From: Arthrobacter jiangjiafuii
GTDB taxonomy: Bacteria > Actinomycetota > Actinomycetes > Actinomycetales > Micrococcaceae
Assembly (NCBI RefSeq): GCF_018622995.1
Contig: NZ_CP076022.1
Coordinates: 2,232,001 to 2,296,000 of the forward strand
Direction: 5' to 3'
DNA length: 64,000 nucleotides
Each line of letters opens with the position of its first letter. Position 1 is the first letter of the stretch. The position numbers and the translations under genes were made by a program. Shown here one piece after another: positions 23,344 through 25,112 of this stretch. The notes under the pieces were generated by a model that saw only the letters and a list, made by a program, of their open reading frames with translations, made no database searches and had not been told where the DNA came from.

Positions 23344-24318
23344 CTAGAAGTCCCAGTCGTCGTCTTCCGTGTTCACGGCCTTGCCGATCACGTAGGAGGA
23401 ACCGGACCCGGAGAAGAAGTCGTGGTTCTCGTCAGCATTCGGAGAGAGCGCGGACAGGATCGCCGGGTTCACGTCCGTCAGGGTGGACGGGAACATGGCT
23501 TCGTAGCCCAGGTTCATCAGCGCCTTGTTGGCGTTGTAGTGCAGGAACTTCTTGACGTCTTCGGCCAGGCCGACGCCGTCGTACAGGTCGTGCGTGTACT
23601 GGACTTCGTTTTCGTACAGCTCGAAGAGCAGTTCGTACGTGTAGTCCTTCAGTTCCTGCTTGCGCTCCTCGGAGAGGCCTTCCAGGCCCTTCTGGAACTT
23701 GTAGCCGATGTAGTAGCCGTGCACGGCCTCGTCACGGATGATCAGGCGGATCAGGTCAGCCGTGTTTGTCAGCTTGGCCCGCGAGGACCAGTACATCGGC
23801 AGGTAGAAGCCGGAGTAGAAGAGGAAGGACTCCAGCAGGGTGGAGGCCACCTTGCGCTTCAGGGGATCATCGCCGCGGTAGTAATCGGTGACGATGTGGG
23901 CTTTCTTCTGCAGGTTCTCGTTCTCGGTGGACCAGCGGAAGGCCTCGTCGATCTCCTTGGTGGAGGCCAGCGTGGAGAAGATCGAGGAGTAGCTCTTGGC
24001 GTGGACCGATTCCATGAACGCGATGTTCGTGTAAACGGCTTCCTCATGCGGGGTGATGGCATCGGGGATCAGCGAGACGGCACCAACTGTTGCCTGCACG
24101 GTGTCGAGCAGGGTCAGGCCGGTGAACACGCGCATGGTCAGCTGCTGCTCGTCCGGGGTGAGCGTGTTCCAGGACTGGACGTCGTTGGACAGCGGCACCT
24201 TCTCGGGCAGCCAGAAGTTATTGACCAGGCGGTTCCAGACTTCTACGTCCTTGTCGTCCTGGATGCGGTTCCAGTTGATCGCCTCAACGTGGCTGAGCAG
24301 CTTTATCTTTTCGGTCAT
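23344..24318 (-). CDS. nrdF: Class Ib ribonucleotide reductase, beta (radical) subunit
   Basis: A 324-residue ferritin-like R2 protein, full length for Nrd[33 protein letters not shown] at the start, then [26 protein letters not shown] with metal ligands (Glu and ExxH), and a second ligand set [18 protein letters not shown]. It holds the dimetal-tyrosyl radical that NrdE needs to make deoxyribonucleotides. Its ATG (24316-24318) overlaps the stop of the upstream endonuclease gene as ATGA, so nrdF translation now depends on or follows that inserted gene. The sequence itself looks intact. Confidence 0.96.
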
Positions 24319-25112
24319 GACTCCGACTCACTTTCTGAAGGGAGACTTGGTTTGGCTGAGTCATCGATGCAGTACCTGCAGTCGGCTTTCTCGACGCCTT
24401 TATTGGTGTGATGTCTTGTGTGGGCGCTTCTTTTGCTGGTCGGCATCGGGCGGCCCCTTCGGACCGCCGACATTTTTGCCCGTGTTTCCTCGCTGGCCTT
24501 CTTGCCATAGTTCGGGTTACCTGCCCCCGTCCTGGTTTCGGACAGCAATTGCCGGGATTCCTCCGTCATGGAACGCCCGAATCCCGGGTGAGCGTCGCCG
24601 AATTTCCCGTAGTTAGGATTGTCCGGTCCTGTGTGCGTGCCCTTCCGGGTCTCCGCCCACTTTTGACGCTGTTCCGCAGTGTGTGAACGCCCGAAAAACG
24701 GATTGGCTTCACCGAACCTGCTTATCCCCGGCCGCCCTAGAGACCTGATTCGGGCCGCTTCGCGCTGTTCTGCGGTCCAGACGAGACCGATCGGCCCGAG
24801 ACCGCCCCCTGAAACGTTCAGAAGTCTATCTCCGTCCCGCTTCAGATACGCGATCCAGTCAATTTCGGCCTTGCCTAGATCCTCGAGATCCCATACGGAT
24901 TGAAGCTCCTCGGCCACGACCGAGTCGGCTTCCTGTTTGCGAAGCCAATCGTAGAACGGTGTCTTCCGGCCGCCCCGCGCAACCTTGAGGTGCTGCTGGA
25001 AACGACGAGCGACGGTCTTGGTGGTGATGCCTACGTAACGGTACTCCCGTTCCCGCCTCGGGCGGATGCCGTAGACAAAGCCAGCCTCCGCCGTCGTCGT
25101 CGTCGTTTCCAT
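24315..25112 (-). CDS. Free-standing GIY-YIG homing endonuclease with NUMOD3 repeats, inside nrd operon
   Basis: A 265-residue protein. The GIY-YIG nuclease domain covers residues 10-100: GFVYG (11-15) and YVGIT (26-30) are the two core motifs, with catalytic-type Arg36/37, Glu83 and Asn99. Three NUMOD3 DNA-binding repeats follow: [22 protein letters not shown] (about 137-158), a second from 165 to 196, and [22 protein letters not shown] (about 199-220). A C-terminal H-x2-HH...C-x2-C element (His231, 234, 235; Cys245, 248) resembles the zinc motif that ends many phage homing nucleases. It begins 16 nt after nrdE and overlaps nrdF by ATGA. GC is a little lower than in nrdE. No intron or intein boundaries are visible. 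Confidence 0.9.

Follow-up and report, generated by a model that had tools for sequence, protein, structure and literature searches.

In Arthrobacter jiangjiafuii, a free-standing GIY-YIG/NUMOD3 homing endonuclease gene (HEG) is lodged in the chromosomal nrd operon directly behind nrdE, and it most probably spreads by intronless homing, with the nrdE 3′ end as its only known site and putative place of cleavage. From the sequence comparisons presented below, we put the probability of this reading at about 80%. The window, i.e., the whole stretch of 64,000 nucleotides that was analyzed, contains the following features of the locus, given in window coordinates.

23344 to 24318, minus strand: nrdF, intact (ORF and NCBIfam match)
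24301 to 24318, minus strand: first six nrdF codons (MTEKIK), with HEG-linked A/T-ending codons (codon comparison)
24315 to 25112, minus strand: the HEG, encoding 265 amino acids (ORF and Pfam)
24369 to 24422, minus strand: C-terminal His/Cys element of the HEG protein, residues 231 to 248 (alignment of relatives)
24453 to 24704, minus strand: DNA-binding NUMOD3 repeats, residues ~137 to 220 (two by Pfam, a third by eye)
24837 to 25082, minus strand: GIY-YIG nuclease domain, residues 11 to 92 (Pfam, alignment, and predicted structure)
25113 to 25128, minus strand: nrdE-HEG spacer of 16 nt, holding the dyad GTTAGCTAAC and a weak Shine-Dalgarno sequence (-2.4 kcal/mol)
25129 to 27294, minus strand: nrdE, intact, as the listed ORF (ORF and NCBIfam match); translation probably begins at ATG 27267 instead of the listed start
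25132 to 25161, minus strand: last ten nrdE codons, proposed recognition region and footprint (codon comparison)
25150 to 25152, minus strand: nrdE codon -7, Asn (codon comparison)
27264 to 27773, minus strand: nrdI (Pfam and NCBIfam matches)
27834 to 28079, minus strand: nrdH-like ORF of 81 amino acids (named by eye)

The gene order in the window is nrdH-nrdI-nrdE-[HEG]-nrdF, all on the minus strand. The initial annotation had described a 265-residue ORF inside nrdHI-E-[x]-F, 16 nt after nrdE and overlapping nrdF by ATGA, and was confirmed in these points: NrdE, NrdF, and NrdI were matched by their models, the nrdH-like gene was named by eye, and the HEG stop and the nrdF start have the ATGA at 24318 to 24315 in common; the strand, absent from that annotation, is minus. 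As the nrdE and nrdF ORFs are both whole, the HEG is a gene of its own, outside any intron or intein. Since nrdF was present in 29/29 genus genomes, the nrd operon was considered part of the core chromosome. The 3.59-Mb one-contig genome holds a single HEG copy, the sole other match showing 26% identity at an E value of 0.32. No phage family was found by Pfam among the ten flanking ORFs scanned, three of which matched a glycosyltransferase, an APP1-type phosphatase, and a fatty-acid desaturase, respectively, the other seven being without any match. Elsewhere in the window, two tandem tRNA-Ala(GGC) genes with equal Rfam scores are located on the minus strand at 38589 to 38666 and 38754 to 38829.

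The HEG protein was recognized by the Pfam models for NUMOD3 (E = 4.8 × 10⁻¹⁹; 68.4 bits, cutoff 20.4) and GIY-YIG (E = 4.7 × 10⁻⁵; 24.0 bits, cutoff 22.6). Of the three NUMOD3 repeats originally proposed, two stretches pass Pfam individually, and the third is visible by eye alone. Conserved nuclease residues are Y14, Y26, G28, R37, H41, E83, and N99, the catalytic Tyr, Arg, Glu, and Asn being kept in 50 to 51 of 51 intact relatives. The C-terminal His/Cys element noticed earlier is likewise genuine, with H231, H235, C245, and C248 conserved in at least 97% of these relatives, and may bind zinc. The predicted structure has a mean pLDDT of 71 and a pTM of 0.39 overall; its sole trustworthy part is the modeled nuclease domain, with a β-β-α-α-β-α order and block pLDDT values mostly of 82 to 92. 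A sequence search of solved structures with the HEG protein gave no match at an E value of 0.01. Membership in the group I intron endonuclease family TIGR01453 was rejected, as the score of 48.6 bits is under the curated cutoff of 56.05 bits, and a group I intron at the locus was rejected as well, since neither the window nor loci L124, L126, and L130 gave any intron family at the gathering threshold. PADLOC returned one homing-endonuclease match (4.1 × 10⁻⁷), which was not read as a sign of defense.

Relatives were searched for by the HEG protein alone, and the loci were then read for position. The gene followed nrdE directly in 32/32 loci of the genome-contig collection. It was carried by 4 of 29 genus genomes, 26 of 395 family genomes (spanning 7 of 32 genera), and 5 of 394 class genomes, lying just after nrdE in the loci read from all of these 4, 26, and 5 genomes. 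The 60 loci collected comprise 57 distinct ones, L133, L142, and L150 having been removed as duplicates of L006, L008, and L030, and in 57/57 the first aligned HEG codon was 8 to 62 nt past the nrdE stop. The hosts belong to two orders, Micrococcales and Mycobacteriales. The Mycolicibacterium loci and most of those from Nocardia have nrdF kilobases away or outside the stretch; because the HEG follows nrdE even there, the nrdE 3′ end, not the E-F junction, is the insertion address. The cut site had been expected near the junction; cleavage at the nrdE 3′ end is favored, whereas the E-F junction as such is not the target. The HEG family uses a single insertion site, for which relatives have empty alleles, and the comparison of junctions suggested at the outset revealed both occupied and empty alleles, the former in the four genus genomes. 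The view that a homing-type endonuclease gene stands on its own within a chromosomal operon was sustained by an intact, patchily distributed HEG with footprints in its flanks.

These footprints were examined base by base over the last 300 nrdE and the first 200 nrdF codons in 24 intact and 78 empty loci of the family. The empty loci were chosen mostly from genera with occupied members and are not a random sample; of 84 empty regions, L219 was dropped (no NrdE found), and L155, L214, L222, L233, and L235, in which the aligned NrdE starts after residue 30, were omitted from the codon alignments. Broken copies (L141 and L149) were omitted from the intact-HEG tests, and L150 and L151, from another family, were left out of the base-by-base, third-position, Shine-Dalgarno, and spacer-hairpin tests. 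Four signals passed a threshold of 10⁻⁴: bases 1 and 2 of nrdE codon -7 (GG to AA, replacing Gly by Asn; 8.6 × 10⁻¹⁰), base 3 of nrdE codon -9 (1.7 × 10⁻⁷), base 3 of nrdF codon 4 (1.9 × 10⁻⁸), and a stray signal at codon 131 (3.4 × 10⁻⁵). Third-position A/T reached 0.34 in occupied versus 0.21 in empty family loci for the last 7 nrdE codons (P = 0.04) and 0.48 versus 0.13 for nrdF codons 2 to 6 (P = 5.4 × 10⁻¹⁰); it was raised next to the junction only and was level past approximately codon 12 (26 occupied and 78 empty loci). Within the genus, nrdF codon 5 specifies Ile in 4/4 occupied and Leu in 25/25 empty operon copies, a count that omits L067, the distant second nrdF copy of G001. Codons 8 to 10 of nrdF are of two kinds, each present in occupied and empty genomes (seven loci compared), and since these kinds cross both states, the footprint breakpoint is placed at approximately codons 6 to 8. 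The proposed search for co-conversion yielded a short HEG-linked footprint in nrdE and nrdF, which may have been left by transfer.

According to the proposed mechanism, donor DNA would enter a cell with an uninvaded nrdE, whose conserved redox-tail codons (...EGCVSCML) would be bound by the NUMOD3 and His/Cys modules and cut by the GIY-YIG domain; repair from the donor nrdE-HEG-nrdF would copy in the HEG together with the footprint. As nrdE stays readable when the HEG is inserted behind its stop codon, avoidance of self-cutting would require codon changes in the target (Asn for Gly-7, Ala for Met-2, or an altered Glu-10). Moreover, given this position of the HEG and the lack of conservation in the spacer, recognition would have to rest on nrdE codons, and the donor would have to differ there. 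The element would also supply its own nrdF leader, so that nrdF would be read by coupling to the HEG stop.

The NrdE tails were compared with this scheme. The usual empty-site tail, E[VL][ED]GCVSCML, occurred in 54/78 of the chosen empty loci versus 0/26 intact loci (24 of the family and 2 of Microbacteriaceae), and of 18 independent pairs, about 14 had the usual tail and an intact HEG on opposite sides, whereas in no pair did the two go together (median P = 1.2 × 10⁻⁴). In one Mycobacteriales family it was found in 23/26 HEG-free loci, versus 0/21 intact Mycobacteriales HEG loci, a comparison uncorrected for ancestry. At 51 intact loci, Asn was present at -7 in 38, Met was absent at -2 in 11, and GCVSCML was combined with Ala at -10 in 2 (L016 and L026, both Mycobacteriales). 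That the altered codons confer target immunity is a tentative reading, and we hold with similar reserve the composite proposal that homing both needs and carries these redox-tail replacements (Asn for Gly-7, Ala for Met-2, and Ala or Gly for Glu-10) to provide immunity, together with a HEG-supplied start signal for nrdF. A conceivable alternative, for which we would likewise not claim even odds, is that the altered tail codons were passively co-converted from the donor or fit translation of the HEG. In its favor, two of the footprint changes, at the third bases of nrdE codon -9 and nrdF codon 4, are silent and hence speak for hitchhiking, A/T-ending codons become commoner near the junction, and Agromyces loci break the immunity rule: the usual tail occurred in 0/25 empty loci there, 3/5 occupied loci have tails also found among the 25 empty ones, and occupied L298 and L302 have [AG]VDGCVSCML, the GCVSCML core of which is in none of the 25. 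The immunity rule may, at worst, fail in Agromyces, where the tails do not fit it. Against passive change, different loci show different replacements (-7, -2, and -10) within the same ten codons, and among the 57 loci the full usual tail stands beside the HEG at two only, both with broken copies (L037 and L141). The noncanonical NrdE tails of the other four of the six broken copies, like the GCVSCML kept at L016 and L026, count against the main reading. If the composite proposal holds, a selfish nuclease family rewrites an essential host enzyme, an essential subunit is read through a parasite, and NrdE tail variants in empty genomes are scars of past occupation. Two empty loci with an Asn tail, L227 (G002) and L287 (G396), are kin of occupied ones and are possible scars of lost HEG copies.

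Part of the patchiness may be due to loss, and an old vertical insert now being lost, with tail and nrdF differences arising by drift on shared ancestry and no homing or immunity, was weighed on the trees. In the genus rpoB tree, two occupied genomes pair with empty sisters, G000 with G018 and G003 with G002 (support 100/99 each); G013 has a long branch there because its sequence was taken from the wrong ORF. HEG presence requires at least three changes on this tree, and as shuffled labels were equally low in 77/500 cases, the tree alone shows nesting, not excess scatter. On the nrdE/nrdF tree (106 rows, junction left out), HEG presence required 18 changes versus a shuffled mean of 25.0, and it is consequently both clustered and repeatedly gained or lost. 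Parsimony cannot separate gain from loss, broken copies exist (6/57; L034, L035, L036, L037, L141, and L149), the Asn tail of occupied G003 persists in its empty sister G002, and HEG clades match orders, all of which would suit an old insert. We nevertheless consider it unlikely, since the linkage of tail and HEG persists in the ancestry-correcting independent pairs, and genus nrdF codon 5 splits by HEG state while codons 8 to 10 cross states. Moreover, the ratio of HEG to nrdE synonymous divergence ranges from ~0.8 (G003-G024 and L132-L136) to ~6 (G000-G003) and does not follow one clock; nrd codon bias may raise this ratio generally and does not explain its spread. Finally, the HEG is mosaic across species: in G024, the second quarter is 97% like the HEG of G007 and the last half 94 to 95% like that of G003, while nrdE and nrdF of G024 group with G007. 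Exchange of the HEG is suggested within one genus, and the claim does not extend to exchange between orders; the HEG tree follows order and family for the most part, and two AU tests against a host-like grouping were not significant (P = 0.099 and 0.106).

Domestication, in which the gene would have ceased to home and would benefit its host, e.g., through adjustment of nrdF expression or binding to the operon, appears unlikely as well: strong purifying selection (median dN/dS of 0.12 in 120 pairs), a position and translational layout kept across genera, and a HEG tree mostly tracking taxonomy would agree with it, but such selection is also expected if copies survive by repeated homing alone, and the HEG, rather than being fixed in relatives as expected of a domesticated operon gene, is missing from 25/29 genus and 369/395 family genomes, is broken at 6/57 loci, has its full nuclease residues, and is accompanied by the flank footprint. 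The situation that the initial annotation had named as refuting mobility, in which most relatives carry the gene with vertical phylogeny and lost catalytic residues, was not seen; the four occupied genus genomes are nested among empty sisters, and the residues are kept.

Homing would also have altered the start of nrdF. In the family, pairing of the nrdF Shine-Dalgarno sequence had a median of -5.75 kcal/mol at empty (n = 82, L223 omitted) versus -4.4 kcal/mol at occupied loci (n = 26; P = 2.7 × 10⁻¹³), and GAAAG is common to the occupied leaders. The HEG stop and nrdF start overlap by 1 to 8 nt in 23/35 intact loci with adjacent nrdF and by 4 nt (ATGA) in 15/35. The earlier suggestion that nrdF leans on the HEG 3′ end agrees with the weaker occupied Shine-Dalgarno sequences and this overlap, and translational coupling of nrdF to the HEG stop would be the natural inference. 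At occupied loci, the native nrdE-nrdF spacer is replaced: a hairpin of at least 9 pairs was found in 38/83 empty versus 0/26 occupied family loci (60 nt on each HEG side).

The spacers showed several further features. A strong GC-rich hairpin of the GTACGACGGCGGG...CCCGCCGTCGTAC type is present in many empty Micrococcaceae spacers (L152 to L154, L156, L198, and L202) and absent where the HEG sits. Dyads after the nrdE stop had arms of 4.25 versus 3.50 expected in 28 occupied loci, a weak excess (P = 0.018 versus shuffles), with none in 83 empty loci; dyads resembling that of occupied loci are also present in empty L155, L157, and L158, so that the dyad is at most a candidate for an element-specific hairpin or operator. 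A similar small cassette, with tiny ORFs, e.g., MANGSYRSAKTGRYVTPKYGKSHPSTTVKESK, and a structured-looking leader, occupies the nrdE-nrdF spacer in G012 and G037, which belong to different genera (L235, gap of 533 nt, and L155, 647 nt; also L060); Rfam gave no match to it at the gathering threshold. By eye, ORFs resembling a cytidine deaminase (L214) and a MarR regulator (L222) were seen between nrdE and nrdF.

Among phages, plasmids, and viral contigs, no close (at least 60%) full-length relative was found at the sensitivity used. Plasmid matches were confined to seven Bacillus subtilis plasmids (32% over 61% of the query), 18 weak loci came from viral contigs (24 to 45% identity, partial query coverage), and of 30 matching phage records, one reached a query coverage of at least 80%. 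The best phage match of full length, gp111 of Arthrobacter phage Talia1610 (32.9% identity, 91% of the query), sits between the phage nrdE and nrdF. Annotated as a G-I-Y Y-I-G endonuclease, it shares the place in nrdHI-E-[x]-F and the catalytic and His/Cys residues with the HEG, but is phage-borne and without part of the linker/NUMOD region. Sixama gp181 adjoins a thymidylate kinase gene, and GodonK gp187 is flanked by DNA polymerase I and a ribonucleotide reductase gene; at L295, 3492 to 5137, of GodonK, a GIY-YIG gene stands directly before the ribonucleotide reductase gene, after DNA polymerase I.

Free-standing homing endonucleases are already known, chiefly from phages; what is new is a chromosomal HEG family with an unusually near, protein-changing footprint. 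In two actinobacterial orders, the family appears resident in an operon of the core chromosome, and its alleles in culturable, harmless genera are empty, occupied, or broken. Direct tests in bacteria thus become possible for the homing cycle, for target immunity gained by altering a protein, and for the reliance of an essential subunit on a parasite. No paper describing the HEG was found by title and abstract opening in the open-licence PMC literature. The group I intron endonucleases such as I-TevI resemble the HEG in combining a GIY-YIG domain with a modular DNA-binding tail, but the HEG locus lacks an intron, and its score is under the TIGR01453 cutoff. In a 2006 survey, most bacterial GIY-YIG homing enzymes are assigned to positions inside or close to known mobile elements or prophages (PMC1564403). 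The Seg endonucleases of phage T4, as described in PMC2988022, are likewise free-standing, intronless GIY-YIG enzymes between conserved genes, for which a double-strand break and co-conversion are expected; they cut hundreds or thousands of base pairs from their own gene, whereas the HEG resides in a bacterial chromosome and its footprint points to adjoining codons rather than a distant cut. MobE of T-even phages, according to PMC2988022, is wedged between the class I ribonucleotide reductase subunit genes nrdA and nrdB, and translational coupling and RNA hairpins are discussed for it. Unlike the HEG, MobE is an HNH nuclease of phage, associated with class Ia genes, and its listed target is nrdB (PMC2988022).
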